A stretch of 26,375 bases of DNA from a virus, in the IMG/VR virus record IMGVR_UViG_3300020183_000397, positions 1 to 26,375 of that record; one strand, 5' to 3'. The first letter of the stretch is position 1. The number at the start of each line of letters is the position of its first letter. The position numbers were made by a program, and so were the translations under genes. Shown here in pieces: positions 2,482-24,100 of this stretch. The notes below the pieces were generated by a model. The model was not told where the DNA came from, made no database searches, and saw only the letters and a list, made by a program, of their open reading frames with translations.

Positions 2482-4338
2482 TTATACTATTTCACACGCT
2501 CCTCCTGCACAGGCAACTTCACCTTTTAAATCTGTGTTGTCTGCTAACTCTATAACTTTTGATAAGTCAATATTGTGTAGGTGAGTCACTTTTTCTTCAT
2601 ACTCCTCCTTGGTGCAGTCTGAAAAAGGTGCTTGAGTGTAGGTATGTTCTGAGTATGGTAATACCGATAAACCATTATAGAACTTTCTATTATCCCACAT
2701 CCACTCTCCTACCATTTCCCACTCATCGTCTTTTATAGAAACAGTTGCTGAAATATTGTGAGTGTTTTGCCCTGTTCTATGTCCTGGTTTAATCCAGTTT
2801 TGATAGAAGTATTTTACTCTTTCTAGTAATTCTAATGCAGATTCGGTTCTAAGAATAGATCCTTCTGGAGCTTTTTGTGGAGCTGAGATGATTGCTGTAT
2901 CGTGAGGTCTATAAGCATCGTCTTCAAGAAGTTCTGGATGATAAATTGCTAAGTAGGAGTATATTGCTTCGTTTTTACCAACTCTGATTCTACGAATATA
3001 ATAGTCGTTATGCCAAGCATGTATACCTGAGCTTGTACCTAAAGTTAAAGAAGAAGTTCCTGAAGGTTTGATTGCAGTGCATCTTGCTGCTGAGTTAATA
3101 CCTAACAACTTTGCTACTCTTTCATTTTCTTCTTTTACTACTTGAGCAGCTGCTTTTAAATCTAACTTCTGTGCTTTACCAGAACCAATACCGGTCATAC
3201 CTACTCCAATTAAAGCTTCTTTTTCTGTTGTACGCTTCCATACTGGTCTTAAATAATGGAAGTCTGTATAGGAAGCCTGTAGTGTTCCAATAAAGGATGC
3301 TGCTTTAACTCTTGCATTCAAATCTTCTTGATCTACAACATCTGAGACGTTTACTTCACAGAGGTTACAGAATTGAAAAGGTCTTAATGCAATTTCACAA
3401 CAAGGATTAGTTCCCCAATCTTTATCATTATTAAAGTAGATTCCTGGCTCTCCTGCATGAGAAGCTTCAATCCTCTTCCAGAGATCTATGAAAAATTCCT
3501 TTGTTACTTTATTTCTCAATAGTACTGCTGAGTTATTAGCTCTTCCTCTTTGAGGGTTTAACTCCCACCAAGCACCTGACTTAGCTGATATCATCTCATT
3601 ATCATCTGCACTAAATAAACTAATTAAAGCTGCTCTTCTAATACCACCTGCTAATACTGCATCTGCAATGTGACAGATCATATCATGTACTTCAATAGGA
3701 GATAATTTATCACGATCTTGTTTACTTGATAAAATTCCTTCTAACTTTACTAAACATTCTTTTAATGGCTGAGGTCCTGGAGCTTTTCCACCTGAAGTTA
3801 CAAGTCTAGCACCTTTGGGTCTAATGTCAGAAAAATCAAATGCGGGAGTTGATCCACCTTCAAAATAAGATCTAACTAATACTTTAACAGCATCAGCCCA
3901 TCCCTCAATTGAATCACCAACTAAAAAACGTCTTGTCTTTTTTGGATCTGGTTTTCTAATTTCTGGTAATTCTTCTACGTGATGTTTTTGTACTGAAAAT
4001 CCTACCCCTGTTCCGCCTAGCAAAAGGAACATGGTTTCTCCAAATGCTCTCCAATCATCAATAGGTAGATAAGCACAGTTGTATATTCTATTAGGACTGA
4101 TTTCAATAGGCTTACCTGCAAATTGCATAGACCTCATTGAAGGCAGGGCCTTTTTATCATATACAAACTTATAGGCCGTCTCAATTTCATCAGCTAAATT
4201 AGGAAACTTTTTTAAATGCATTGATTTATTTCTGTCTACTAACTCTGTCCACGTTTCCCTTCTTTGTAATTCAGGAACGTATTTGCCATATTTCATGTGC
4301 ACAGTAATGTCTGATAAAATTTTTTGCGAGATGTCCAT
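2482..4338 (-). CDS. nrdJ: Adenosylcobalamin-dependent (class II) ribonucleoside-triphosphate reductase
   Basis: Reduces ribonucleotides to deoxyribonucleotides for phage DNA synthesis, using a coenzyme B12 radical and so independent of oxygen. The sequence resembles the monomeric Lactobacillus leichmannii-type enzyme: C88 (YNCAYLP) and C324 (FQFCNLCEVN) as the substrate-reducing cysteine pair, NPCCE at 311-315 providing the thiyl-radical C313 with N311 and E315, a KPSGTSS loop, and a C-terminal CX4C pair (C610, C615) for reduction by thioredoxin. At 618 residues it is shorter than the roughly 740 of the Lactobacillus enzyme but looks complete. The leader (CCAAAAAACA before ATG) has no Shine-Dalgarno. 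The host must make or import cobalamin. Confidence 0.95.
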   Translation of the reverse strand: MDISQKILSDITVHMKYGKYVPELQRRETWTELVDRNKSMHLKKFPNLADEIETAYKFVYDKKALPSMRSMQFAGKPIEISPNRIYNCAYLPIDDWRAFGETMFLLLGGTGVGFSVQKHHVEELPEIRKPDPKKTRRFLVGDSIEGWADAVKVLVRSYFEGGSTPAFDFSDIRPKGARLVTSGGKAPGPQPLKECLVKLEGILSSKQDRDKLSPIEVHDMICHIADAVLAGGIRRAALISLFSADDNEMISAKSGAWWELNPQRGRANNSAVLLRNKVTKEFFIDLWKRIEASHAGEPGIYFNNDKDWGTNPCCEIALRPFQFCNLCEVNVSDVVDQEDLNARVKAASFIGTLQASYTDFHYLRPVWKRTTEKEALIGVGMTGIGSGKAQKLDLKAAAQVVKEENERVAKLLGINSAARCTAIKPSGTSSLTLGTSSGIHAWHNDYYIRRIRVGKNEAIYSYLAIYHPELLEDDAYRPHDTAIISAPQKAPEGSILRTESALELLERVKYFYQNWIKPGHRTGQNTHNISATVSIKDDEWEMVGEWMWDNRKFYNGLSVLPYSEHTYTQAPFSDCTKEEYEEKVTHLHNIDLSKVIELADNTDLKGEVACAGGACEIV

Positions 4339-4378
4339 TGTTTTTTGGTTATAAAATTTAAAAATAGAAATAGCATTA

Positions 4379-4396
4379 CCGCTGATTTCTCAGCAG
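4379..4396 (-). terminator. Hairpin with GAAA loop, possible terminator
   Basis: On the minus strand CTGCTGA-GAAA-TCAGCGG forms a 7-bp stem (one G-U pair) with a GNRA tetraloop, between the small gene ending at 4421 and the reductase starting at 4338. The sequence after it is AT-rich but lacks an immediate clean U-run, so it may be a weak terminator, an mRNA-stabilising hairpin or a processing site. Confidence 0.4.
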
Positions 4397-4420
4397 TTTA
4401 CGTACAAAACCTTTTTTAAT

Positions 4421-4627
4421 TTAGCTTAGGTATTTGGTGATTTTATCGCGGTTGAAATCTGAGTCTTTACCAACTATGCTAGACATTTTTAATGTCTCAG
4501 CTTCTGTAGCTTGTCCCAATAGGTTTGATTGTACCTTAGACGCTGTCAACTTCTGTAGATAAGTCTTAGCAACTTTAAATTTGCTAACAGCTGCTTTTTT
4601 AGCTTCATAAATTGATAATATACTCAT
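4421..4627 (-). CDS. Hypothetical small protein
   Basis: 68 residues, function not recognised; beginning MSILSIYEAKKAAVSKFKVA, predicted mostly helical and basic in the first half. The reading frame is open 13 codons further upstream to an ATG at 4666, but the start at 4627 is preferred because GAGGAA stands directly before it and the upstream extension (Arg/Tyr-rich) looks like leader sequence. It sits between the DnaB-type helicase and the ribonucleotide reductase, and a hairpin follows its end. No membrane segment or known motif. Confidence 0.65.
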   Translation of the reverse strand: MSILSIYEAKKAAVSKFKVAKTYLQKLTASKVQSNLLGQATEAETLKMSSIVGKDSDFNRDKITKYLS

Positions 4628-4640
4628 GATTCCTCGATTG

Positions 4641-4653
4641 TAATAATAAATAC
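4641..4653 (-). promoter_or_regulatory. TATTTAT-type upstream motif
   Basis: Minus strand GTATTTATTATTA, 13 bases before the preferred ATG at 4627. It is one of several similar motifs in this window placed shortly before start codons. Promoter function is inferred only. Confidence 0.3.
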
Positions 4654-4668
4654 TAGTTTTTCTCAATT

Positions 4669-6066
4669 TTAACCAATTTTTCTTGTTAATTCGAAGTATT
4701 TTTTACCCAAAGCTGCTCTCTCATTGTTACTAAAAGATGTAAATGATTGACTACCAGTAGGTCGTATTGGGTTATTAGGATCACTTATATACATATTAGT
4801 ATCATCTAACTCGGTTGAAGCTATTTCAATCTTACCAACATTTGTATCGATCTTGGCTCCATACGTCATTCCATCCATTCCATATCTATTTTTCATAATA
4901 TGAACCCTACCAGTTCCATCTACCTTATCTTGTCTCTTCCTTGAAAGAGATATAGCAAAATCTGCAACCATTATCTTACCATAGCTACCTGCTGCTTTAT
5001 CAGCTTCAATAATATCATCCTTAGCCCCCATTCTATTTACCTGAGAAACCGTCCATACAGGTAGATTAAATTCTCTTGCTAATCCCTTTGTTGCTGTATA
5101 AACATCATCAATTTCTTCCTTTCTATCTGCAGCTTTCCTGCCAGATTTAAGTAAATCAACGTAATCTATAATAATAAGATCTGGATGAAAGCCTAAATCT
5201 CTACATTTTTGAATATGCCCTTCAATTGTAGATATTGAAGCTTTACCTGGAGTATACTCTTTTACGATAAGTTTGCCCTGTAGAGTCTTGATTGTATCTT
5301 CTACCTCATCCCTTCTACCGGCTGCCTGTTCCATACTTGCTTGAATAAAGTTAGCATCATATCTTCTTCCTACATAAACTTCTGATAACTCTAATGTATA
5401 GTGAAGTACGTTGTAACCAAGTCTTACGGCTTCTGCTCCTAGAGATATCAACATCCAAGATTTACCACCTCCAGGATTACCAAATACCAAACCAAGGTCT
5501 CCTTTGCCTAAACCTCCTGCAAGTAATCCATCAATTATAGTCCATCCTGTTGGTACACAGCCTCTCTCTTCTACTCTATAACGACTTTCTACATCTTTAA
5601 CATATTCATGTCCCAAGTTTTTATCTTGGCCTGCTTTAGAAGCTCTATCAATTAAACCTCTAATATTTTCATAATCTCCCTTCTCCAATAATTCAATAGA
5701 TTTAAAAATAGCGTTCTTTAGCTGCTGGTTACGACAAAAATTAGAAAACTCTTGCTCAATATATTCTCTATCATCGTTAATTACCTTATAAGCTTCTTTT
5801 AACTGCTCTATAATAGAGACTTTAAGTACTTCGTTAGGTATTTTTTTTACTTCTGCTGATAGATAATCCAAAGAAGGAGTAGTATGGTATTTTGCATAAT
5901 ATTGTAAGACCTCTTCTAGTATCCATTTATGTGCTGGGTTATCAAAATGCTCTGGATCTACAACGTCGTATATGTTTGTTAAAAATTCTTTATGTTTTAG
6001 TAGTGAGTTCAAAACTTTAATTTGAAAACTCATACCATATTGTGATAAACTCGATAATGTTCCCAT
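4669..6066 (-). CDS. DnaB-type replicative DNA helicase (T4 gp41-like)
   Basis: Hexameric helicase that unwinds DNA at the phage fork. The N-terminal helical domain covers roughly residues 10-150. The RecA-like motor follows: Walker A GNPGGGKS at 196-203, a catalytic glutamate in TLELSE (about 227), Walker B LIIIDYVDLL with D301, and the SQ sensor (341-342) in TVSQVNRM. The late motif with MKNRYGMDG is typical of the DnaB/gp41 family. Length 465 is normal. A strong Shine-Dalgarno (AAAGGAGAGG, 6071-6080) precedes the ATG. It lies immediately downstream of the 5' nuclease gene, fitting a replisome cluster. No separate primase gene is visible, and no primase domain is fused to this protein. Confidence 0.95.
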   Translation of the reverse strand: MGTLSSLSQYGMSFQIKVLNSLLKHKEFLTNIYDVVDPEHFDNPAHKWILEEVLQYYAKYHTTPSLDYLSAEVKKIPNEVLKVSIIEQLKEAYKVINDDREYIEQEFSNFCRNQQLKNAIFKSIELLEKGDYENIRGLIDRASKAGQDKNLGHEYVKDVESRYRVEERGCVPTGWTIIDGLLAGGLGKGDLGLVFGNPGGGKSWMLISLGAEAVRLGYNVLHYTLELSEVYVGRRYDANFIQASMEQAAGRRDEVEDTIKTLQGKLIVKEYTPGKASISTIEGHIQKCRDLGFHPDLIIIDYVDLLKSGRKAADRKEEIDDVYTATKGLAREFNLPVWTVSQVNRMGAKDDIIEADKAAGSYGKIMVADFAISLSRKRQDKVDGTGRVHIMKNRYGMDGMTYGAKIDTNVGKIEIASTELDDTNMYISDPNNPIRPTGSQSFTSFSNNERAALGKKYFELTRKIG

Positions 6067-6070
6067 ATAA

Positions 6071-6080
6071 CCTCTCCTTT
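6071..6080 (-). promoter_or_regulatory. Strong Shine-Dalgarno of the helicase gene
   Basis: Minus strand AAAGGAGAGG, followed by TTAT and ATG at 6066. It fixes the helicase start and is one of the few canonical ribosome-binding sites in the window. Confidence 0.65.
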
Positions 6081-6097
6081 ATTTAATATAATCTATT
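6081..6097 (-). promoter_or_regulatory. ATTATATTAAA upstream motif
   Basis: Minus strand AATAGATTATATTAAAT just upstream of the helicase Shine-Dalgarno. An almost identical sequence stands before the polymerase gene (11261-11275). It may be a promoter or leader element; function is inferred. Confidence 0.3.
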
Positions 6098-6102
6098 TTA
6101 AT

Positions 6103-7134
6103 CTATTTTGCAACTTTGTAATGTTTCAACTTCTCAAACTTATTAAAAAGCCAGAGCTCGGCATTAGGAATTGCATTTTGCAAGGTGTCATCCTCATACA
6201 TCCTGAGAAATTTCTTCTTATCCATTGTTTCTTTTGGATTTACAAGCGTTTCTTTAATTGCTTGAATAGAATCCTCAGGAATGTTTGGATCGTGTAAATC
6301 CATTAATTTTTGATTTATTTCAAGTTGGTAGGAGAAGTTTGCAATCTTTCCATACATTTTACTGCTATCTAAATTTCTTCTACAGTGATCTAAAACCTCA
6401 ATAAGTCGAACTTGCCTATCTTCTTTTAGCATAGGAAATAATTTAAGCATAGTTTTTTCTCCTAATCCATGTACACCTGGTACATCATCTCCATTATCAC
6501 CTAAAAGTATTTTTTGTGTAAGGTAGTTTATTGGTAAAATACCAAACTCCTTTTGAACTGTTTCAGGATTATAAAATTTTTTCTTAGTAGGAGAATAAAC
6601 TGTTACTTTATCACTAACAAGCTGAATATAATCTTTATCCGAAGACATTATAAAAACCTCCTTACGTAAAACCTTTGCAATATATCCAATAACATCGTCT
6701 GCCTCAATTTTATCTTCCACAATAATATCAACTGGTAGACATTTTAAATACTGGATTAATCGTACGATCTGAGTTGTGATTGCTTCCGACTCCTCTTCTT
6801 GATCATCAAAAGCATCCCAGTTAGTAATCTTTTTTAGACGTCTGTTTGCTTTATACTCTGGGTATAGGTTTCTTTTATTTGTAGATCCACCTTCTCCGTC
6901 AAAAACTAATATAACTCTTGTAGGGTTTGTTAACTCTATTGCATGTCCTAAGGACTTTAAAAAACCTACCATACCACCAATATGGTTACCTTGAGGATTT
7001 AGTTGATGAACTACTACAAAACTTCTTAGAAAAGTATTTAGTGCATCAATAATAAGAACTCTATCATTACGATAGAGCTCCTCTTGCTTAGCTTGCTTTA
7101 ATTTACTTATAATGTCATTAAATAGTTTGTCCAC
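6103..7134 (-). CDS. 5'-3' exonuclease / flap endonuclease (T4 RNase H-like)
   Basis: FEN/PIN-type nuclease that removes RNA primers and 5' flaps from lagging-strand fragments. Acidic metal-binding residues are in the family order: D30 in LIIDALN, D79 in LVFDGEGG, the YKANRR helical-gateway segment (94-99), EADD at 144-147, SSDKDY with D166 and D168, and GDNGDDVPGVHGLGEKT (212-228), which combines the last metal ligands with the helix-three-turn-helix DNA-binding motif. Length 343 is close to T4 RNase H (305) with a longer C-terminus. The start codon is GTG, not ATG. It overlaps the end of the DenV gene by 17 bp, and no better start keeps the D30 motif. The helicase gene follows. Confidence 0.92.
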   Translation of the reverse strand: MDKLFNDIISKLKQAKQEELYRNDRVLIIDALNTFLRSFVVVHQLNPQGNHIGGMVGFLKSLGHAIELTNPTRVILVFDGEGGSTNKRNLYPEYKANRRLKKITNWDAFDDQEEESEAITTQIVRLIQYLKCLPVDIIVEDKIEADDVIGYIAKVLRKEVFIMSSDKDYIQLVSDKVTVYSPTKKKFYNPETVQKEFGILPINYLTQKILLGDNGDDVPGVHGLGEKTMLKLFPMLKEDRQVRLIEVLDHCRRNLDSSKMYGKIANFSYQLEINQKLMDLHDPNIPEDSIQAIKETLVNPKETMDKKKFLRMYEDDTLQNAIPNAELWLFNKFEKLKHYKVAK

Positions 7135-7516
7135 TCTCTTTTTTTTGTTTAGCTAATGGATTAGCTAATCTTTCTTTAATTCGCTCTGCCACAATATCAA
7201 TATCTCTTTGTGTTGGTACATAACCATTCATTAGATGAGCTGGAACGTTGTCCCACGAACTAAGATAACTTTGTACATTAAATCCTCGAGCCTTACATTC
7301 AGTATACACATCAATATAACGCTCTTTTAAATATCCTAGCTTGTCATAGAAAAAGCTAACGTGCCCCTTACCTAAAGTAAACTGAGCAGGTACGTTTTTA
7401 AGATTATATTTACCTTTTCCTACTACATTTGGAATACGCTTCATCTCTCTATGCTCAGCCATCAAATGTTTATCTGTAAGAGTTTTAGGAGGAATACCGA
7501 TATTAATACGTGTCAT
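7118..7516 (-). CDS. denV: Pyrimidine-dimer DNA glycosylase / AP lyase (T4 endonuclease V family)
   Basis: Cuts DNA at UV-induced cyclobutane pyrimidine dimers, acting as glycosylase and then AP lyase. The similarity to T4 endonuclease V runs along almost the whole 132 residues. It keeps MTRIN with the N-terminal Thr2 nucleophile (exposed after Met removal), R3, H17 (DKHLMAEHRE), R23, the catalytic E24, and R27. FTLGKGHVSFFYDKL and ECKARGFN are further conserved blocks. The end overlaps the start of the 5' nuclease by 17 bp. It stands between UvsX and the nuclease, so repair is embedded in the replication cluster. This suggests a phage exposed to sunlight, for example in surface water, which is an inference. 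Confidence 0.95.
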   Translation of the reverse strand: MTRINIGIPPKTLTDKHLMAEHREMKRIPNVVGKGKYNLKNVPAQFTLGKGHVSFFYDKLGYLKERYIDVYTECKARGFNVQSYLSSWDNVPAHLMNGYVPTQRDIDIVAERIKERLANPLAKQKKESGQTI

Positions 7517-7545
7517 AAACCTTTATTTTTTGTAATATCAATATT

Positions 7546-8616
7546 TTACTCTTCGGAGGCATCAAAAATATCTCGATTATCCTCTTCCGTTTCTTCTACT
7601 ACATCAAAGTCTGTAGATCCAAGAACCTTTAACCACTCACCTGAGTGATCTTTTTTATACTTATTTAGATCATTTGTGGTATCTAAAATAAATCCGTGAA
7701 CTGTCATAATTACCTTATTCGTGGTGGTAATTCCAGTAACGTGGTTTTTATCGCAACTAATTTTAGTTCTCTTAGCAAACTCTACATCCTTACCATTCTT
7801 AGTAGCTTTAATCTTATTAGTTCCAGAGTTCGTAACATTACCAAATGTAATTACCAACGAAGCATCGAAGAACATTGTATCACCACCTTTGTTCTTTAAC
7901 TTAGGTTGACCCATAATAGATTCAGGCTTTGCTACCCAAACTTTATTGATTGCTACAAATGTATTTGTGTAAGGCTGGCTTTCTTTTCTTGATAGAACAA
8001 TCTTCTGATTAATAAAGTTACCAAATGTCTTTGACATTGCACCTGCATTCCACTCATTGTTATTCTTATTAGATGTTATTGATAGCTCACATGGAATAGA
8101 TCCCACTGAATCCCAGAAGAAGCATAATTCGTAGGGTAGGTTGCCTCTCTTTTGTTCATCTAAAATATCTGCCATAAAAGCACCTACATCTTCAATACTG
8201 TTCAAAGTTTCTCTATCTCTAAATAAAAAGAATCCTTTATAATCAACTACCTCTCCATTTTCATCACATACTTCCTCAAACTGTAGTCCCATCATACGAG
8301 CATGTTCCCAACTCCACTTCATTTCAGTTACAATGAATACAGGTAATATGCCCATGTTCTGAGCATTAACAGCAGCTTCTAATAAAGCTGTTGTTTTACC
8401 TGTATCACTGTGTCCTCTTAGAATAGTAATATGACCTTTAGGAATACCTGGAATTGATAATGTTTCTTGAAATGCACTCGATAAAGGAATCCACCCTTGA
8501 GATTTAAACTTTACCGAAGTAGCAGATAAGTTCTTACTTTTCTTGAATTTTTCAAGATTAAAATCTCCCTTCACTGCGGCTGCGACTGCAGCATTTAGTG
8601 ATTTACCTTTTGCCAT
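7546..8616 (-). CDS. uvsX: UvsX/RecA-like recombinase
   Basis: Strand-exchange ATPase for recombination-dependent replication and repair. Walker A GHSDTGKT is at 68-75, with a short N-terminal helix-rich region before it. A catalytic glutamate lies in FIVTEMKWSWE (about 98), and Walker B is LCFFWDSVGS with D169. The region around 235-250 (GGDTMFFDASLVI) fits the L2/core end. The acidic C-terminal tail (EETEEDNRDIFDASEE) resembles that of RecA and UvsX, which modulates DNA binding. At 356 residues it is near T4 UvsX (391). The leader is AT-rich without Shine-Dalgarno. It lies directly behind the single-strand binding protein gene, as in other T4-like replication modules. No UvsY homologue was recognised. 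Confidence 0.9.
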   Translation of the reverse strand: MAKGKSLNAAVAAAVKGDFNLEKFKKSKNLSATSVKFKSQGWIPLSSAFQETLSIPGIPKGHITILRGHSDTGKTTALLEAAVNAQNMGILPVFIVTEMKWSWEHARMMGLQFEEVCDENGEVVDYKGFFLFRDRETLNSIEDVGAFMADILDEQKRGNLPYELCFFWDSVGSIPCELSITSNKNNNEWNAGAMSKTFGNFINQKIVLSRKESQPYTNTFVAINKVWVAKPESIMGQPKLKNKGGDTMFFDASLVITFGNVTNSGTNKIKATKNGKDVEFAKRTKISCDKNHVTGITTTNKVIMTVHGFILDTTNDLNKYKKDHSGEWLKVLGSTDFDVVEETEEDNRDIFDASEE

Positions 8617-11965: not shown

Positions 11966-14900
11966 TTATTTTGATCCATATCTAGTACCTACTTTTGCTT
12001 CGTTTCCAGGTACTGCTCCTCCATCTGATACGAACATAGGTAAGAAATCTCCTGGATCACATACTTTTCCAGTCTTCCACTCTCCTTCGTATAGTTCAAA
12101 GTGTAAATGGAATCCCGAAGACCTACCTTCAGTACCCATATATCCAATAGGTGTTCCTTGTTTTATTTTTTGGCCAGCTTTTACTTGTATACCACCAGGA
12201 GGTAGGTGTCCGTATACTGACTCGTAAACTTTACCTTCTATATTATGAGATAAAACTACGTACCCTCCATACCCTTGAGGGTCGCAAGGACCGCAGGCAA
12301 TCTTTACAGTACTATCTGCAATAGCGTAGATAATATCTCCGTTAGTACCTTTACTACCTACTTTACTACTGAGAGTGATATTCTTATTACTTCCGTTAGG
12401 ACCCGTTATATCGTATCCCTTGTGACCATTAGGATTACCTGCTACTCCTTTAGTTTTACTACCAGCTCTTCCTAAAAAGTCTGCAAAAGTATAAGGAATG
12501 TTAAGAGGCCATATAAATCCTAATTTTGATACGCTAGTTGGAGGAGTAGCAGTAGTTATAGGAGCACTTCCTAAAGCTCTGGATCCAGCTGCTGATCCTG
12601 CTAACTGTCTTGCTTTTTGAGATATAGTATAACCTGAATTTAAAGTATTTTGTTTTGGTATATTAACCATTTGCGCGGCTACCTTGGTAAACCATCTATT
12701 ATTACTAATTTCGTGATCTAATTTACTTATAACGAAACCTACCTTAACTACGCTTCCGTTTTTATATTGAGAAGGTAACCTATCTGCAGGTATTACAAAT
12801 CCTTCTCTTAACTTCATTGTACTTATCCCGTCCATCGTAAAATCAATCTTCAACGGAAGAATACCTCTAGCAGTAACGCTGTCACTTTCCACCGTAAATC
12901 CTGTATTAGTTGATTTAATATTAGACTTCAACGTACCACAAGTTTCAGAATAAAAATTTGATACGTTCTGAATATCTAAAATATTAAACTTCTTAGTACT
13001 GTAGATATTAATCATATGCTGGTTAAGACTGATAGCTAAAGGAAGTAAATTTTCCGGAGTAGCAGTTACTACGCCTTTACCTGAAGGTGTTACCGTTTTA
13101 AACGGCATTATTCTGTTTTCTAGTTTACTATTTAAAGCAGTAAAAGCAGAAACATCCTGTCCTGGTTGTACTGGATTTCTCTCTCCTGCAGCTGCGGTAG
13201 TAGCAATAGCTGAAGCTAACTTATTACTTACATCGGTAGAAAAATTTAAACTGTGGACTACTGTACCTAATCCGTAAATAGGAAAAGTAGGGTACTCTGT
13301 ATTCTCTCCTCTGTTAACTAACTGTTCGTCGTAAATTCTCATTACGTTAGAATCATCATCATAACCAACTTTAAATTTATTAATATTACCCGTAGCTTTA
13401 GCGATACCTGAAAGAAGATTATCTAAAAACCCTGAAAGATAAACTATTCCATCTTTATCAGACATTGACATATTCTGCAAAGTAAGAAGTATATAGTCTA
13501 TAGATACTAAAATATTCATTATTTTACCTCTAGTAAAATCTTGAACTGTATCATCGATATAGGATCCCATTTGGGATTTCTTACTATCCATATCAGTAGC
13601 AATAACGTTCATATCAGGACCAAATAGTTCAGGAGTAATTTTAGCTACATCGATACTCCTTTTAGTATACATTTCTTTTATTCTTTCAGAATTTGCTCTA
13701 AAATCTAATAAACAAACCGTAGGATCAACTGAACATTGAGCTGGAAAAGTAAAGCAAAAGTTAGTATCTGGATTAAAGTCTATATAAACTAAAGGTTTTT
13801 TTACTCCTTTGCCGGTATTGTACATAGTACAGTTACTATTCATATAGGCAAGAAGTAAACCTAAAGGTATATAAACTAATTCTGTAGTAGTTACTTCGTT
13901 ATTAGCTACTACTTCAAAATCTGGATAATAGTAAGTTCCTAATTTTTCAAAAGATACTTGAGGTATAGTTACGTCAGTTCTACCTGCCATGTAAGCAGAA
14001 TTATAACCATATTTAAAATCTTCAGTTGGATTTCTCCATAACCCTAATCCTGCATTACAAGCATATCCAACGTAACTATTAAAATCAGAAAAGTTTTTTC
14101 CTAATAAAGCTTGTTGTTTCCATAGCATTAAAGCCGAAGATAAAGCTGAACTAAAGTTATTAGCGGTAGTTTGAGCATCAGTGGTATTACTCTGTTCGCT
14201 TTTTTTAGTTTCTTCTCCTGATTGTTGAGAAGGAACTGTTGGTACACCTGTTACTATAGGAGTTCCATCAGTACCATTAACCTTTAAAGATTCTATTATA
14301 GCTCCTATTCCAGTTAAAGTTAAGGTACAAGTATAACTTCCTCCCTTATCCATTGCCCAAGAATAATTACTTACTCTACCTAACATAGCGTCATAGTTAC
14401 CAAAACTCTCTCTTCTTCTCTTATTCATCTCTATATAGAGTTCCTCTTTGTTGTAATCGTTAGAGAAAATATCTATAGGAAATTTTGCTATTTGAATACC
14501 TCCGTTATTATCTGCATAAGTAGTATGTCCCCATTCTAATAACATATCAAAACCTAACCTAAGGTACAGTACGTCTATTATATCTAACTGATTTAGATTG
14601 TGACAGTTAAGTTCTATTTTAGCAATTCGTACTGAACCTGCAGTACCTGCCGGAGTAATGTTTATAGATTTTATACCTGGCATTGGTCTGACTCCTAGCT
14701 CTGTAATACCTCCTTGACCGTAAGATTTATTACCTAATATACTATAATCTTTTCCGTTACCTGCGTAAATTCCATTAAAAAGAGTCCATTTTTTTGCTAA
14801 CTCGATCCCTCCATCTCCTAACACTTTAGCTAGTTCATCATCTTTTACTTTTACGAAAGAAGTTAATTTAGCAAAAGCATTCTTTCTAGATTTAAAGATT

Positions 14901-15016
14901 ATACTAGCTTCAGATTGTAACTCATCTACTCCTTGTAAAGAAGCTCTTCTTTTAACTTGATCTATTACGCTCTGTTCAAGTGGATTACCAATAAGATTAT
15001 AAGGATTATTTCCCAT
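11966..15016 (-). CDS. Baseplate hub protein fused to an M23 endopeptidase
   Basis: Likely central baseplate spike/hub that also digests host peptidoglycan during DNA injection, comparable in role to the T4 gp27-gp5 complex. The N-terminal region (residues about 60-260) carries the block ITELGVRPMPGI followed by LYLRLGFDMLLEWG, typical of tail hub proteins of large phages. A Ser/Thr/Gln-rich linker follows around 265-290, then a long beta-rich body. The C-terminal domain from about 831 is a peptidase M23 (LytM-like) domain with HKGYD (H865, D869), YGHL (H937) and HLHFE (H970, H972), the zinc and catalytic residues. All are present, so the enzyme should be active on peptide cross-links. It starts 7 bp after the gp53-like gene. 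Confidence 0.9.
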   Translation of the reverse strand: MGNNPYNLIGNPLEQSVIDQVKRRASLQGVDELQSEASIIFKSRKNAFAKLTSFVKVKDDELAKVLGDGGIELAKKWTLFNGIYAGNGKDYSILGNKSYGQGGITELGVRPMPGIKSINITPAGTAGSVRIAKIELNCHNLNQLDIIDVLYLRLGFDMLLEWGHTTYADNNGGIQIAKFPIDIFSNDYNKEELYIEMNKRRRESFGNYDAMLGRVSNYSWAMDKGGSYTCTLTLTGIGAIIESLKVNGTDGTPIVTGVPTVPSQQSGEETKKSEQSNTTDAQTTANNFSSALSSALMLWKQQALLGKNFSDFNSYVGYACNAGLGLWRNPTEDFKYGYNSAYMAGRTDVTIPQVSFEKLGTYYYPDFEVVANNEVTTTELVYIPLGLLLAYMNSNCTMYNTGKGVKKPLVYIDFNPDTNFCFTFPAQCSVDPTVCLLDFRANSERIKEMYTKRSIDVAKITPELFGPDMNVIATDMDSKKSQMGSYIDDTVQDFTRGKIMNILVSIDYILLTLQNMSMSDKDGIVYLSGFLDNLLSGIAKATGNINKFKVGYDDDSNVMRIYDEQLVNRGENTEYPTFPIYGLGTVVHSLNFSTDVSNKLASAIATTAAAGERNPVQPGQDVSAFTALNSKLENRIMPFKTVTPSGKGVVTATPENLLPLAISLNQHMINIYSTKKFNILDIQNVSNFYSETCGTLKSNIKSTNTGFTVESDSVTARGILPLKIDFTMDGISTMKLREGFVIPADRLPSQYKNGSVVKVGFVISKLDHEISNNRWFTKVAAQMVNIPKQNTLNSGYTISQKARQLAGSAAGSRALGSAPITTATPPTSVSKLGFIWPLNIPYTFADFLGRAGSKTKGVAGNPNGHKGYDITGPNGSNKNITLSSKVGSKGTNGDIIYAIADSTVKIACGPCDPQGYGGYVVLSHNIEGKVYESVYGHLPPGGIQVKAGQKIKQGTPIGYMGTEGRSSGFHLHFELYEGEWKTGKVCDPGDFLPMFVSDGGAVPGNEAKVGTRYGSK

Positions 15017-17567: not shown

Positions 17568-20105
17568 TTAACTATATGTTGAAGATCCTGGATTTAACAA
17601 ATTACCTGGAACAGTAGAAGCATTATACGCTACCGATGATGCCAATACTTGATCGTTTACTTTTAATACTATAGGGTTGTTTGATTGACCTCCTGATTTA
17701 TTTACTAACTGTTCTAGTAGAGCAACCATTCTGTTCATCTGTGCTGCTGAGTTAGCTCCTAAATACAATTCTCCTTTATCTACTTTTGCGAAACCTGTCT
17801 GAGTTATTAATCCTCCGTCTGCCTGTTTTGGTGCACCTGCTTCTAATCTATTTAAGTCATAAGGGACATATCCTGGTCTATATTGGTAACTTCCAACACT
17901 TGGATTAATTTCATACTTAGAAGAAGGTTGGGCTGCTCTACTTCCTAAATAAGTTTCCGATTTACCTTGATTAGTACTATTAGGAGCCATACCTGCTACT
18001 ACATCGGTACCTTTTACTGCTAATCCCATAGCTCCTAACTTAGCTTCAAATGCTGGTTTAGCCAAAGTCATTGCTAATGCTTCCATTGCTAATCCCATTC
18101 TCTCAGTAGCAGCTGACATTCTATCTTGAATAGACATTTGATCAAATTGAGTCGCTAGTGCTTTGTCTCCTAGTTGAGCTAAAAACTCTTGCTTCTTTCC
18201 TTTAAGTACAGCTATTTCATAATCTTTTTTAACCTTTTCTAAATCATCGGTTTTTAAAGCAGCTAAAACTTGCTGTTGCATCAAAGTCTTACTCAATTGA
18301 TCTGTACTCATTCCTAAAGCTTCTGCAGTCGCTTGCTGAGCGAGTCTATTCATTTTACCGTACTTAACGGCATCAATATTTTGATTATTAAGTTCTTTTA
18401 CTAAACCTCCTAAATCATTAGTTAAAGCATAGTAACGAGCTCTTTCAAGATTTAAATTTTGTCCCATTAAAAGCTCTGCAGTCATTTGCTTTTCGATCGA
18501 CGTATTAAAATCTAAAAGTTTATCTTGAATACCTGCTATATCTTTAAGCTCCATTCCAAAAGCTCTTGCCGTAATTGCAGCTTTAGCTAATGCTGCATCT
18601 TGACCAATATAGTTAATTCTTACGGAATCAGATAGCTTAGCTAAATCTTTTAATACTTCTCTTTCGTCTACGGCAGATTGAGTTATAGCTTTTTCTACTC
18701 TAATTTGAGCTAGTCTAGTTTTAAACATCTCCATTTGAGATGTCTTATTGATAAGAGACGTTCTATTTAGGTCAGCAGCAATCATTGCAGCTTCACCATT
18801 CATCTCTTTCATTGCAAAACGAAGCCTAGTATTCTCTTCTAATCTTTTGTCATCAAGTCTTACTGCAACTCCTAATTCCTGATTTGTTGCTATTTGAGCT
18901 TGAGTTAGATTTTTAGCATTAACAAAAATACTTTTAGAATCTGCAGCTATTTGAGTAAACTGACTACGAATGCTAAATGCAGTTTCATAATTAGTATTAA
19001 GGTATCTAGCTAATTGAGCAGCATCGGCATCAACTACTTTAAAAGCTGCTGCTGTAGCGTCTATACCTTTTTTAAGAGCTTCCCCAGCTTTTTTAGCAGC
19101 AACTAATTGAGGTTGTCCTGCTGCCATTAAAGCTTTGTCAGCAGCGTCCATTTCTAACAGACTTCCTCCACTTCCTGCAGATGCACCATCGTCCATTTTA
19201 AAAACTCCTCTAGATACTAAATCATCTCCTTTAAATAACTTAGTACCTGCTATAATATCATCCTTATCATTTATTTTAAAAGTACCTTCTGGGGCTAATA
19301 GAGTTCTTTTTCCATATCCTTTAAAGTCATCTGCTTGCTTCTCTTTACCCTTCATTGCCATTTGTCCAAGTGCCCCTAACAACCCCGTAAAACCGCTTTT
19401 TTCAGACATACTCCCGAATATACTTTCTGCGACAGCCCTTCCTTTCGATATCTCGCCTTGGGCGACTCTTTTTAAAGTTTTATCAGGAACGTTAAGACCT
19501 AGACCTGATAGAAAACCTACTTTTTTTGATTTTTTTAAATTTTCATATTTTTCGGTAGTCTTTTCTGATTTGTTAATGTAATACTCTTGCTCTTTTAGCT
19601 CCCCTGTTTGAAGAGATAACAGAGTTAATTCGTTTCGTAAACTCTTCCTTCGCGCATTACTAAGTTTTTCTGATTTAAGCTCTTCTGCTAAACTATCTAT
19701 TCTAATTCTTAAGATTGATCGGTGTTCTGAAATTGATTTTTTTAGGTCAGTTGTAATTTTTGTACTTAGTATACCGCCTTTCTTAAGAATCTCTTGATAA
19801 CCTTCAGCTTTTTTCCCTATCTCACTAAACGAGCTACTTATATCTTTAAAATTAGCTTTTTCTTCTAGTCTAGCTTTTTCTTTACCTTTGACTACTTTAT
19901 CATACTCTTTTTGAATTAACCTTATTTGATCTGCTTCTTTTTTCAACTCGTCTAGGACTCCTCTAATAGATTTAGACGAATCCTTAAAAGTCTCCGTAAA
20001 AACTCTTCTTGCTTCCTGAGCATTCTTAAATAGTCTACCTTCAAGCTCATTCATGAGCTGTATATACTCTTGTAATTCTTCTTTACTTAGATTAGGATTC
20101 GCCAT
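17568..20105 (-). CDS. Tape measure protein
   Basis: Long helical protein that fills the tail tube and fixes its length. Residues 1-210 are a highly charged coiled coil. The middle is Ala-rich helical and repetitive. The C-terminus contains QADGGLITQTGFAKVDKGELYL near 755-775, a signature of tape measure C-termini, followed by NRMVALLEQLVNK. At 845 residues, and about 1.5 angstrom per residue in a helix, the tail would be roughly 125 nm long (inference from the known length rule). It lies directly behind the frameshifted gp26-like gene, the position of the tape measure in most tailed phages. No lysis or transglycosylase domain was recognised. Confidence 0.85.
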   Translation of the reverse strand: MANPNLSKEELQEYIQLMNELEGRLFKNAQEARRVFTETFKDSSKSIRGVLDELKKEADQIRLIQKEYDKVVKGKEKARLEEKANFKDISSSFSEIGKKAEGYQEILKKGGILSTKITTDLKKSISEHRSILRIRIDSLAEELKSEKLSNARRKSLRNELTLLSLQTGELKEQEYYINKSEKTTEKYENLKKSKKVGFLSGLGLNVPDKTLKRVAQGEISKGRAVAESIFGSMSEKSGFTGLLGALGQMAMKGKEKQADDFKGYGKRTLLAPEGTFKINDKDDIIAGTKLFKGDDLVSRGVFKMDDGASAGSGGSLLEMDAADKALMAAGQPQLVAAKKAGEALKKGIDATAAAFKVVDADAAQLARYLNTNYETAFSIRSQFTQIAADSKSIFVNAKNLTQAQIATNQELGVAVRLDDKRLEENTRLRFAMKEMNGEAAMIAADLNRTSLINKTSQMEMFKTRLAQIRVEKAITQSAVDEREVLKDLAKLSDSVRINYIGQDAALAKAAITARAFGMELKDIAGIQDKLLDFNTSIEKQMTAELLMGQNLNLERARYYALTNDLGGLVKELNNQNIDAVKYGKMNRLAQQATAEALGMSTDQLSKTLMQQQVLAALKTDDLEKVKKDYEIAVLKGKKQEFLAQLGDKALATQFDQMSIQDRMSAATERMGLAMEALAMTLAKPAFEAKLGAMGLAVKGTDVVAGMAPNSTNQGKSETYLGSRAAQPSSKYEINPSVGSYQYRPGYVPYDLNRLEAGAPKQADGGLITQTGFAKVDKGELYLGANSAAQMNRMVALLEQLVNKSGGQSNNPIVLKVNDQVLASSVAYNASTVPGNLLNPGSSTYS

Positions 20106-20137: not shown

Positions 20138-20437
20138 TTACTTTTTGGGTTTTGGAGCTTTTACGTTATACGCTTGTTTAACTTCGTCAGGAATCTGAGC
20201 TTTGTTAGACTTTTTTAGTTCTACTCCTTGATTTACAATATAATCGTCTCCAGAGTTAGCTCCAGATATAGTATCGTAGTGATCTTTTAGTTTCTTAAAG
20301 GTAAACTTACGTAACCAAGTAGGCATATTATATACCGTACTAAAGTCATAACCTCCCTGCCCATGAAAACATATATCATGGATCTGAGCAAATAAGGCTA
20401 TTCTATCATTAGGACTCAGGGTAAAAAAAGGTAGAAT
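20138..20437 (-). CDS. Frameshifted C-terminal extension of the gp26-like assembly protein
   Basis: A 100-codon open frame that begins right after a stop codon at 20438-20440 and overlaps the end of the gp26-like gene in the other frame. Its only ATG of note (20326) lies inside the frame without a Shine-Dalgarno. The 32 codons before it read as conserved protein, including RIALFAQIHDICFHG and GGYDFSTVYNMPTWLRKF. I therefore read it as reached by ribosomal frameshifting (net +1, or -2) on the run of seven T at 20429-20423 (minus strand), giving a fusion of about 344 residues. Two-frame tail assembly chaperones just before the tape measure gene are widespread in phages. The C-terminus is lysine-rich. 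Alternatives are a sequencing indel in the T run or independent translation from 20326. Confidence 0.7.
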   Translation of the reverse strand: MLPFFTLSPNDRIALFAQIHDICFHGQGGYDFSTVYNMPTWLRKFTFKKLKDHYDTISGANSGDDYIVNQGVELKKSNKAQIPDEVKQAYNVKAPKPKK

Positions 20438-21173
20438 CTAAAGGTAGATCTATACCCTCCTCTGTATAGGTTTCAGACTTAAAATCAAACTTTAGTTCAA
20501 TTCCAGGAGTGATATCTTTTACGTATTTTCTGAATGCTTTGGCATGTCGTGCTAGAAAGTGATTATCTACGAAATCTCTAATAGTAGATTTACTGGTATC
20601 TCCATTTACTGAAGTGACGAGATATTTCATTCTAGTAGATAATTCTGGTGAGTCTAAAGGATTTAATTTCCTATAACCTTGAATATCTCTATCTATCTCT
20701 TTTTCATCCTTAACTGTAAGGAGTTTGAAAGTTAAGTTAGTTTTAGTTTCTTGAATATTATATTCGAATGAATTTTTACCGTCTACTGCTAAAGACTCCT
20801 CTAAAGTTTTAGTACTTAATTCTGCTAAATCTACTACTACGGTTTCTTCTACTGCAGTATTAGGGTTAAGAAATTGAACTTTATAATCTTTTCCGTAACC
20901 TAAAATTCTTGCTGCTACGAGTAAAGCATCCCTATCTGCTACTAATAAGTCGTCGTAATTAATCTTAGTAACAATTAAAGATTGTAATAACTTATCAAAC
21001 ATTACATTTTGTCTGATATAAGCAATGTTAGTGAGAATATCCTCTTCTTTAGCTGTCATGTACTTCAATTCGACAGTTCCTGAGGATAATGCACTGTCTT
21101 TAGAATAAAGTAACCCTTTAGAAGGTAATTCTACCGTTTCGGTAGGCATTTGAAAACCTGTGTTTGTACTCAT
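20409..21173 (-). CDS. T4 gp26-like baseplate/tail assembly protein
   Basis: 254 residues. The block VELPSKGLLYSKDSALSSG, then VELKYMTAKEEDILTN, and VTKINYDDLLVADRDALLVAARILGYG are hallmarks of the family I know as T4 baseplate protein gp26 (Pfam T4_baseplate). The protein is likely an assembly factor rather than a major virion component. Its position directly before the tape measure, and the overlapping second frame, match the two-product tail assembly chaperones (lambda G/GT type). The 0-frame product ends STFFYPES at 20409; a shifted ribosome would leave at the FF codons. The leader after the 21251-21280 terminator is AT-rich with AATAAAC repeats and no Shine-Dalgarno. Confidence 0.85.
   Translation of the reverse strand: MSTNTGFQMPTETVELPSKGLLYSKDSALSSGTVELKYMTAKEEDILTNIAYIRQNVMFDKLLQSLIVTKINYDDLLVADRDALLVAARILGYGKDYKVQFLNPNTAVEETVVVDLAELSTKTLEESLAVDGKNSFEYNIQETKTNLTFKLLTVKDEKEIDRDIQGYRKLNPLDSPELSTRMKYLVTSVNGDTSKSTIRDFVDNHFLARHAKAFRKYVKDITPGIELKFDFKSETYTEEGIDLPLDSTFFYPES
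20423..20429 (-). promoter_or_regulatory. Candidate ribosomal frameshift site (T7 run)
   Basis: Minus strand ACC TTT TTT TAC in the gp26-like frame. The other frame is open only between the stop at 20438-20440 and the 0-frame stop at 20409-20411, and the T7 run is the only slippery sequence in that short window. The required shift is +1 or -2, not the commoner -1. Confidence 0.6.
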
Positions 21174-21309: not shown

Positions 21310-21798
21310 CTAAAAGTTGAGGACTGCGTAATCGTACGACAAACTTAAAGTAATTTCTGAAATTTCAGATTGCTGAGACCAGTCAAATCCATTAGTCGTA
21401 TAGTTGTTAATAAAAGCACCTTTGATTACCCACTCTCCTACGATATCTCCTACAGGACCTAAAGTATTTAGAGTAATATCTTTCTTATAAAAGTCTGAAT
21501 ATCCGTCACGTCCTGTTACTGATTCGTGTGATAAACGTACCCACTCCATTACAGCTTGAGCACCAGAAGGTGTAATTGGATCGTACAAGCTAATATCAAT
21601 ATCTTGCCACTCTCCTTTACCTTTGATTTTACGATATACGTTGATATGATCTAATTTGATTGTCTCAAACTTGATAGTAGGTACTGCAGCCTTCTTAATG
21701 AAGTATGAAGGAATACCATCAATATACATAATAAAGCGATGTGTTACCTTAGGTTCAAACGCTGTGAAAAATATCTCATTTGGATTTAATACTGCCAT
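21310..21798 (-). CDS. Tail tube protein (T4 gp19-like)
   Basis: Forms the stacked hexameric rings of the inner tail tube through which DNA passes. The 162-residue length equals T4 gp19 (163). The N-terminal FEPKVTHRFIMYIDGIPSYFIKKAAVP, the segment VYRKIKGKGEWQDIDISLYDP and the C-terminal ITLSLSYDYAVLNF are typical of the contractile-phage tube family. The ATG is preceded by a TATTTAT-type motif and an A-rich leader. The gene is followed by the strong terminator and lies close to the sheath gene, separated from it by one lysine-rich gene. Confidence 0.93.
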   Translation of the reverse strand: MAVLNPNEIFFTAFEPKVTHRFIMYIDGIPSYFIKKAAVPTIKFETIKLDHINVYRKIKGKGEWQDIDISLYDPITPSGAQAVMEWVRLSHESVTGRDGYSDFYKKDITLNTLGPVGDIVGEWVIKGAFINNYTTNGFDWSQQSEISEITLSLSYDYAVLNF

Positions 21799-21866: not shown

Positions 21867-22310
21867 TTACATTCCACCACCCATCTTTTTACTGATAGCG
21901 TCGGATAACTCTTGTTCTAATTTTTTCTTCTCTTCTGGAGTTTTAGCATTCTTCCACTGATCGTATTTCATTTTAATAAACGGAATAGATCCTAAAAGAA
22001 GTCCACCTACGCCAGCCCAGAAATTAGGATCAGCAAGAACGCTTTCTTCCATCTTATCTCCTTCTTCTTTTACTTCTTCTACTGCATTTTCAGCTAACAT
22101 TTGCTTAACAATAGGATATAGAGATTCTTTAAGCTTCTTTTTAGCATCAGCTTTCTTTTTAGCTTCTACTTTTTTCTTATCTTCAGCTTTCTTTTTTTCG
22201 TCAGCTTTCTTTTTATCAGCTACTTTCTTAGCTTCTGCTTTTTTATCAGCAGCTACCTTCTTAGGGTCAACTACTTTCTTTGCTTCTGTAAGATTAATTC
22301 TAATTTTCAT
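21867..22310 (-). CDS. Lysine-rich protein with one hydrophobic segment
   Basis: 147 residues, not recognised. Residues about 9-62 are an almost uninterrupted Lys/Ala/Asp/Glu array (repeats like KKKADEKKKAEDKKK), predicted to be a single long charged helix. A short amphipathic block (SLYPIVKQMLAE) and an acidic stretch follow. Residues about 93-112 (DPNFWAGVGGLLLGSIPFI) are Gly-rich and hydrophobic and could form a membrane segment. The C-terminus is charged and ends MGGGM. It lies between sheath and tube genes, both abundant virion proteins. The Lys-rich helix could bind nucleic acid or membrane, but nothing specific supports either. The repeat is low-complexity, so homology claims from it would be unsafe. 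Confidence 0.8.
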   Translation of the reverse strand: MKIRINLTEAKKVVDPKKVAADKKAEAKKVADKKKADEKKKAEDKKKVEAKKKADAKKKLKESLYPIVKQMLAENAVEEVKEEGDKMEESVLADPNFWAGVGGLLLGSIPFIKMKYDQWKNAKTPEEKKKLEQELSDAISKKMGGGM

Positions 22311-22321
22311 TTTTTATTATA

Positions 22322-24100
22322 TTATGCTCCGAATGTAGCTCCAGTAGGAGTGATGTTGAAGTCAACGATTATAAATTCTGATGTCTTAGTTGGTTGTAAA
22401 TAAATTGCACCTACTAATTGGTTTCTATCGATTACATCAGCTGTATTATTAGTTTCATCCATTACAACTTGGAAAGCATATAAACCTTGTCTTTGCTGCA
22501 CATACTGTAAGTATGGATTAACTTGGTTTAGGAATGAATTTCTTGTTGCTGTAGTGTTTGGTTCAAATAATAGAGTAGAAGAAATTTGATTAACATTAGC
22601 TTTTAACTCGATTAATAATCTTCTTACATTAACTCTATTTAATGCTGAGTTAGCTGATTGTAAAGTCTTCTGACCTAAGATTACCGTACCTTGACCTGGT
22701 AATACACCTATTGGATTCACCTTACCTTGATAAAGAGCATCTCTATCTGAAACGGATAAACGTCTTTCTGGTTGTATTACTGTTGGTAAAGCACCTCTGT
22801 TAATACCTGCTGGTGCAAACCAAGGTTGACCAACTCTATCGTTATACTCATAAGCTGCTGGTACTACTGTAGAAGGTGGACAGAATACTAATTTACCTGT
22901 CTCTTGAGATCTCATTTGCAACCAAGGATAGTAGGTAGCTCCATAAGATGAATCTATAGACTGAGCTAAACCAATAACGGTATTGTTAGAAGCTACGTTA
23001 TATGCTACGGTATCAACTACAGCAATTGCATCTCCTCTCTGTTGAGTATTAGATACTAAAGTAGAAATTAAGTTAGGAGCGTTTTGTAAGTTAATACCAG
23101 GGGCATAAATTACGTTATATTGAAATAAGTCTTTATTAGATAGAACGCTAATACTAGAAGTATAGTTATCTACTACTACGCCTTGAATAGGTAAGTTTTG
23201 TAAACTAGGGATATTTTCAAACATTGAACCTGTAACTGCATTATTAACTACGCCAGTTGCTCCGAAAAATCCTCCGAAACAAGAACCTGAACCTACTGCA
23301 GGAATGAATTGTATATACTCTGGTTTAGGAGCTCCTGTTGGAGTTAAGTAATTAGGAGTAGGGTTATTTACTGCTTTTACTCTCACATATCTACTGTTAT
23401 TGGGATAAGATCCAGTAGTAGCAACGTAAAAATTACCTTGTCCGTCTAAAGTTAACTGAGAAGATTGATTTCCGATTACGTATTCAATATAGTTAGAAGA
23501 GTTAGGATCTAAAGATAAATTATTCCAAGACTCTAATACTGTTTTAGCACCTTCGTAGTCATTACCTTGTCTAATAGAGAGACTAAATTGACCAGAAGCT
23601 GTATTAGCAGAGGTAATTTCCCATCTGATATTATCCGATGATCCAGAAATTAAAGCTGATCCAGTTAAATTATATAGTGAGCTAGTAGTTACTTGACCTC
23701 CAGCTACTACACCTTCACCAATACTGTTCATAATAGAACCTTGCGATAAAGTTTCTAATACGAAAGAAGCTGAAGTTACTGCACTGAGTATACTAGCAGA
23801 TGCAGGAGCATAAGCACCACTTACCACTCTAGATACTAACAAAGAAGATCCTCCTTGTTGAAAATAGTTATAAGCTGCAATTGATGTTAAATACTCGGTA
23901 GTTGTACCTAGAATGTCTACGAAATCACATCCAAATTTAGATTTGAAATCTGAGTAGGAAGTTACTATTGTAGGTATGCTTACCGGACCCTTTACCGTAG
24001 GACCAATAAGTGCTGCTCCAACTGAGATAGGGCCTGTAGTTATCTGAGAAGTATCATTTTCATTTAAGAAAATGCCCGGTGAGTTTAATGTTACTGCCAT
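22322..24100 (-). CDS. Contractile tail sheath protein (T4 gp18-like)
   Basis: Sheath subunit that contracts to drive the tube through the host envelope. The N-terminus MAVTLNSPGIFLNENDTSQ fits the sheath start (PGxYxxExD), followed by SVGAALIGPTVKGPVSIPTIVTSYSDFKSKFG and ISS-type segments of the conserved first domain. The C-terminal part (SDRDALYQGKVNPIGVLPGQGTVILGQKTL, then VNVRRLLIELK) and the last segment, TKTSEFIIVDFNI, are the diagnostic C-terminal sheath domain. At 592 residues it is slightly shorter than T4 gp18 (659). This gene is the basis for calling the phage a myovirus. It is followed by the lysine-rich gene and the tail tube gene. Confidence 0.96.
   Translation of the reverse strand: MAVTLNSPGIFLNENDTSQITTGPISVGAALIGPTVKGPVSIPTIVTSYSDFKSKFGCDFVDILGTTTEYLTSIAAYNYFQQGGSSLLVSRVVSGAYAPASASILSAVTSASFVLETLSQGSIMNSIGEGVVAGGQVTTSSLYNLTGSALISGSSDNIRWEITSANTASGQFSLSIRQGNDYEGAKTVLESWNNLSLDPNSSNYIEYVIGNQSSQLTLDGQGNFYVATTGSYPNNSRYVRVKAVNNPTPNYLTPTGAPKPEYIQFIPAVGSGSCFGGFFGATGVVNNAVTGSMFENIPSLQNLPIQGVVVDNYTSSISVLSNKDLFQYNVIYAPGINLQNAPNLISTLVSNTQQRGDAIAVVDTVAYNVASNNTVIGLAQSIDSSYGATYYPWLQMRSQETGKLVFCPPSTVVPAAYEYNDRVGQPWFAPAGINRGALPTVIQPERRLSVSDRDALYQGKVNPIGVLPGQGTVILGQKTLQSANSALNRVNVRRLLIELKANVNQISSTLLFEPNTTATRNSFLNQVNPYLQYVQQRQGLYAFQVVMDETNNTADVIDRNQLVGAIYLQPTKTSEFIIVDFNITPTGATFGA

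Follow-up and report, generated by a model that had tools for sequence, protein, structure and literature searches.

A single gene of a T4-related phage with a contractile tail probably encodes a tail assembly chaperone in two forms, short and long, the long product arising through a +1 ribosomal frameshift near the end of the short reading frame. We put the probability of this reading, which is built on sequence comparison, at about 0.87. The gene lies in a stretch of viral DNA of 26,375 nucleotides (IMG/VR record IMGVR_UViG_3300020183_000397, positions 1 to 26,375), which as a whole is called the window in this text. The original prediction, made from the letters of the window, was that a programmed frameshift joins a gp26-like protein to a second frame; the relation of the two frames, the putative slip site and the missing start codons all support it. 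The features concerned are the following:

20409-21173, minus strand: predicted short tail assembly chaperone of the gp26 family, zero frame, 254 aa (PF12322, phrog_150, model pLDDT of 92.6, nearest solved structures)
20138-20437, minus strand: second (+1) frame, putative C-terminal domain of the long chaperone (frame relation, stop counts)
20423-20429, minus strand: candidate slip site TTT TTT T, followed by AC CCT GAG (TTT YTN T kept in 144 of 144 distinct junctions)
20412-20437, minus strand: stretch in which the shift of the window must occur, bounded by the TAG of the +1 frame (20440-20438) and the TAA of the zero frame (20411-20409)
20430-20432, minus strand: codon ACC preceding the T run (relatives strongly prefer a C at the base next to the run)
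20138-21173, minus strand: predicted trans-frame product, 344 aa and about 39.0 kDa with a +1 shift (345 aa with a -2 shift)
17568-20105, minus strand: gene that follows the C part, encoding the 845-aa tape measure protein (338 residues align at 29% identity with the protein annotated as tape measure in Flavobacterium phage immuto, E 4e-23)
21310-21798, minus strand: tail tube protein of the gp19 family, upstream neighbour (PF06841, E 3.3e-08; phrog_4542)
22322-24100, minus strand: tail sheath protein (PF17482, E 5e-12; phrog_23)

The second frame stands in the +1 relation to the gp26 gene. Its open stretch begins at 20437, behind the upstream TAG, and ends at 20141, before a TAA at 20140-20138. 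The first ATG (20326) is codon 38; the 37 codons that precede it in the window include neither ATG nor GTG nor TTG. Both frames are simultaneously free of stops for only 26 bases (20437-20412), and the junction reads ACC TTT TTT TAC CCT GAG TCC TAA in frame 0. Recomputation returned the same coordinates for both frames and for the T7 run at 20429-20423 as had been proposed, and the T7 is the single slippery sequence that the overlap holds, again as proposed. Among the runs of seven or more T on the coding strand of the window, it alone is intragenic; the other lies between genes, in a terminator-like stretch upstream of gp26. Across positions 1 to 26375, runs of seven or more T occur 14 times on the plus strand and twice on the coding minus strand, an imbalance that looks as if T runs were avoided in messages.

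The gene order is tube, gp26-like gene, C part and tape measure. A place just before the tape measure gene had been likened to that of the two-product chaperones of other phages, which holds true, with the tube gene on the other side. The presence of the sheath gene at 22322-24100 indicates a contractile tail. Between the tube and sheath genes, positions 21867-22310 encode a 147-residue protein with a weak match to phrog_15587. Elsewhere in the tail region (11966-15016) we find a protein of 1016 residues that ends in an M23 peptidase domain and may be a cell-wall enzyme carried on the tail. A block of replication and repair genes at 2482-8616 encodes a ribonucleotide reductase with an insertion domain of the B12-dependent type, a DnaB-like helicase, a 5'-3' exonuclease, a pyrimidine dimer glycosylase and a UvsX-like recombinase.

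The zero-frame protein matches PF12322 over residues 28-234 (E 8e-07; 29.4 bits against a cut-off of 24.5) and phrog_150 over residues 7-250 (E 1e-11). Along the 282 positions of the phrog_150 profile, the zero-frame protein spans 10-232 with 45.8 bits and the +1 fusion 10-269 with 55.8 bits, while T4 gp26 spans 14-235 and T4 gp51 spans 13-280, which identifies gp51 as a longer member of the gp26 family. Because the fusion extends the profile match as gp51 does, the best reading is that it corresponds to gp51 and the short form to gp26. Fusions from the huge metagenomic phage LR756508 and from Microcystis phage Mel-JY01 reach profile positions 273-274, and those from immuto and from a further relative (L086) extend less far. 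Searches of Pfam and PHROGs with the C part alone gave no credible family; hhalign placed it against the C-termini of gp51 proteins in the expected register, with a weak E of 0.008. A check proposed with the original prediction, for fusions that carry both parts in one frame, had a divided outcome: no such fusion was found in this lineage, and T4 gp51 is the equivalent long form in a single frame.

The N and C parts were folded separately. The N-part model (pLDDT 92.6) has as its best solved neighbours, at middling scores, 3klu (YqbN, presumably a prophage tail chaperone; Z 6.2) and 2ob9 (the HK97 tail assembly chaperone; Z 5.5). The C-part model is helical, with a pLDDT of 70, and a fold search with it returned no reliable match. 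Together with the gene order, these modelled fold neighbours support two tail assembly chaperones, one short and one long, comparable to gpG and gpGT of lambda. Two proteins of Leptospira phage LE4 match the models, A0A343LED6 that of the N part and A0A343LED7 that of the C part; since their accessions are consecutive, the same split may exist in LE4.

Relatives were gathered by protein searches that did not require a slip site. In viral contigs, 372 were retrieved with the gp26 query and at least 597 with the second-frame query, and the C part lies in the +1 frame at 188 of the 189 related loci that have both parts, so that the second frame, whose fate across related phages had been named as a check, is kept in the same relation. 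The one exception (L182) has a normal junction; upstream of it, an altered A-rich stretch interrupts frame 0 of gp26. Two loci that match the L182 sequence up to the A-rich stretch (L180 and L184) are both intact, and the change is either a real mutation or an assembly error. Removal of duplicates from the 189 loci left 144 distinct junctions. Downstream of the site, the +1 frame of the distinct related junctions contains one stop in 9174 codons, compared with 1455 in 9313 for frame 0 and 445 in 9174 for the -1 frame, and its openness is therefore far beyond chance.

The same arrangement is present in isolated phages, namely Flavobacterium phage immuto (TTT CTT TGG) and Microcystis phage Mel-JY01 (TTT TTT TGG). 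The more distant Bacillus phage SP-15 (L247, KT624200) also has it, with TTT TTT CAC and the C part in the +1 frame at about 2170-2490, where the annotation lists only the 39-aa hypothetical protein SP15_046; this suggests that the +1 arrangement extends to Bacillus phages. In LR756508 the junction reads TTT CTA TTC, and the joined-protein profile matches both parts independently, one per frame. Another huge-phage relative of gp26, LR756511 (L112, junction near 4770), has an ATG for the C part right behind the zero-frame stop, unlike the +1 relatives. In a tree of the N part, which is provisional and has long branches, the +1 rows stand together and apart from T4 and S-PM2, with LR756511 among them. 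A search of a genome collection returned six MAG contigs, some of them named Flavobacteriaceae or Winogradskyella. Neither Tenacibaculum phage pT24 nor Campylobacter phage CP220 showed a junction of the TTT YTN T +1 type.

All 144 distinct junctions carry TTT YTN T. The commonest forms are TTT TTT TGG CCT GAC (95 of 144) and TTT CTT TGG CCT GAC (29 of 144), and a few read TTT CTA or TTT CTT TAC; two loci that at first appeared to deviate (L147 and L187) read TTT TTT TTC and fit the pattern. We took 58 representatives, consisting of the window and 57 relatives filtered to less than 72% mutual identity. Among these the latest opening of the +1 frame is 2 bases ahead of the site and the earliest frame-0 stop comes 15 bases past the first base of the site, which confines the common shift window to 17 nt, essentially the conserved element.

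Codon choice around the site is strongly biased, with p values that ignore shared ancestry in each case. For the Phe of the first slip codon, all 58 representatives use TTT, compared with 415 of 519 cases elsewhere in the same genes (binomial p 2e-6, shared ancestry ignored), while conserved Phe columns upstream are roughly 10-20% TTC. The codon before the site is AAC rather than AAT at a ratio of 29:1, compared with 246:535 elsewhere (p 2e-13, shared ancestry ignored), and GGG accounts for 22 of the 38 Gly codons at -9, compared with 69 of 768 elsewhere (p 7e-13, shared ancestry ignored). Coding does not readily account for these biases, because translation of the +1 frame is not required until the shift. 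With a C in front of it, the run would be less prone to backward slipping, and the GGG at -9 may act as a weak Shine-Dalgarno-like element; the best Shine-Dalgarno match upstream of the site is no better than in control stretches, and a search of the junctions for a stimulatory RNA structure downstream found none. The window has ACC before the run and no GGG at -9, and the missing GGG together with UAC in the A site makes its site a minority form.

The original prediction had left the choice between a +1 and a -2 shift, and the frame relation, itself confirmed, fits both equally well. A -2 slip on the U run would yield a product of 345 residues with one extra Phe, and shifts of this size occur in Mu-like tail genes. 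It is improbable here, as a tandem -2 slip would place the UGG-reading A-site tRNA of most relatives on UUU two bases back, where it is unable to pair; the C preferred just before the run would be of no help to backward movement, and TTT CTT T fits the known +1 slip on CUU_U. A -2 slip of a single tRNA is formally possible as a variant. For a +1 slip it is enough that the P-site tRNA, paired with UUU or CUU, moves on to the following UUU, and the family data favour +1 over -2. Two CTA sites allow the slip one codon earlier, from UUU to UUC, and thus offer more than one candidate slip codon. A -1 shift was rejected, as relatives with TTT TTT TGG CCT GA meet a TGA three codons on in the -1 frame.

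The second frame could alternatively be a separate gene. An ATG start for it is made unlikely by the finding that 47 of the 144 distinct junctions lack ATG, GTG and TTG upstream of the conserved block in the +1 frame; the startless stretch is still constrained as protein: in these relatives the codons before any start have a pN/pS of 0.28 and the whole C part one of 0.31, both rough values since synonymous changes are near saturation. The remaining junctions, to which the window does not belong, have ATG, GTG or TTG in the overlap, at scattered positions. A conserved start of its own, which had been named as evidence that would speak against the frameshift, is thus not what the relatives present. 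Translation might still begin at a rare CTG (20420-20418 in the window, +1 frame), perhaps by re-initiation after the gp26 stop, as CTG is conserved at that position in most junctions and as the C part of S-PM2 and LR756511 is a frame with its own ATG. We regard this as slightly less probable even than the -2 slip: the CTG simply encodes a conserved Leu, it would leave the invariant TTT YTN T, the preceding C and the GGG excess unexplained, candidate starts elsewhere are scattered among relatives, and T4 gp51 carries both parts in one chain.

Slippage of RNA polymerase on the T7 homopolymer, which the window shares with most relatives, could in principle produce mixed messages. However, the 29 junctions with TTT CTT TGG and the few with TTT CTA or TTT CTT TAC keep the same frames with a homopolymer too short to slip, and TTTCTTT excludes polymerase slippage as the shared mechanism, leaving it a very small probability. 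Smallest of all is the chance that a sequencing or assembly error in an error-prone homopolymer has split one continuous gene, an explanation refuted for the family as a whole by the same relation at 188 loci from many samples, including isolate genomes and non-homopolymer junctions. With the arrangement common to so many independent assemblies and to isolated phages, reads with six or nine T, the outcome that was to speak for one continuous gene, are very unlikely.

Under the preferred +1 reading, most ribosomes would stay in frame 0 and stop at 20411-20409, releasing the short chaperone of 254 aa. A minority would shift by +1 at UUU UUU U (20429-20423), where the P-site peptidyl-tRNA-Phe would re-pair on the UUU one base downstream while the A site holds a waiting sense codon, UAC in the window and UGG in most relatives. 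The shifted ribosomes would then continue in the second frame to 20141 and complete a long chaperone of 344 residues with a helical C-terminal domain. By analogy with gpG and gpGT of lambda, tape measure binding would fall to the N part, while the C part would bring in tail tube subunits. We infer the occurrence of the shift, its efficiency, the exact slip codon and the chaperone function from these comparisons.

The proposed system combines traits of several known ones. Like the gpG/gpGT class of lambda, it would yield two products, one short and one long, from a gene that directly precedes the tape measure gene, although the shift there is -1 and here would be +1 on TTT YTN T. T4 gp26 and gp51 belong to the same family as the window gene, but they are encoded by two separate genes on opposite strands, whereas here a single gene has two frames. 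Long-tailed phages other than T4 widely share the two-product frameshift (PMC5009743), and the title of Vladimirov et al. 2022 (Virology 566:9-15) favours a non-frameshift mechanism for chaperone genes of T4-like phages. The slip site itself resembles that of prfB, which is CUU_U and, in a small minority of prfB genes, UUU_U (PMC5009743); the prfB shift is +1, the direction that the frames imply here, and it too occurs in Bacteroidota, being found in 72% of surveyed Bacteroidia, whose ribosomes rarely use Shine-Dalgarno pairing (PMC8710568). The two differ in that prfB has UGA in the A site, whereas UGG, UAC or UUC follows the slip codon here; in that prfB has a Shine-Dalgarno-like element 3 nt upstream, whereas no close AGGAGG and only the GGG excess at -9 is seen here; and in that prfB serves autoregulation, whereas the two products here would act in structural assembly.

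Other tail loci offer further comparisons. Shifts of +1 in tail genes occur in SPP1 and in Listeria phage PSA, phages of other types that we liken to the present case without sequence comparison. Cyanophage S-PM2 (L233, NC_006820) divides the N and C parts between gp26 and a short gp51 that occupy different frames, and the split falls where it does here along the profile, but the S-PM2 C part lies in the -1 frame and has its own ATG. This ATG is just behind the gp26 stop, and TCT TTT TTC is found at the gp26/gp51 junction, in the region 1660-1864; a -1 shift is possible at that junction too. The Vandenendeviridae, among them phage Adele, have a conserved T run at the end of a chaperone gene before the tape measure gene, from which a frameshift was deduced (PMC12846349); run and position are as here, and the shift proposed for these other phages is -1 on GTTTTT.

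Altogether, the locus probably encodes a tail chaperone that belongs to the T4 gp26 family and is made by frameshifting at a site like that of prfB, and an incomplete literature search found no report of this +1 family. In annotated genomes the C part is missing or cut down to a hypothetical protein of 36-39 residues, which means that one of the two chaperone forms is absent from the annotation. Flavobacterium phage immuto provides a cultured test case for +1 shifting in Bacteroidota. We consider it possible, though somewhat less likely than not, that +1 shifting on UUU-YUN-U is an old and stable route to both tail chaperones across a T4-related branch that includes phages of Bacteroidota, Microcystis and Bacillus as well as a huge phage, that it proceeds while a sense codon occupies the A site, a prfB-like slip lacking the usual stop codon, in hosts that include Bacteroidota, whose ribosomes rarely use Shine-Dalgarno pairing, and that T4 genes 26 and 51 represent another, possibly derived route. 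T4 is the stated exception among frameshifted chaperones, and the anticipated link between its gp26 family and the frameshifted class gains support from the conserved prfB-like site: a T4-related +1 family would bridge both classes.
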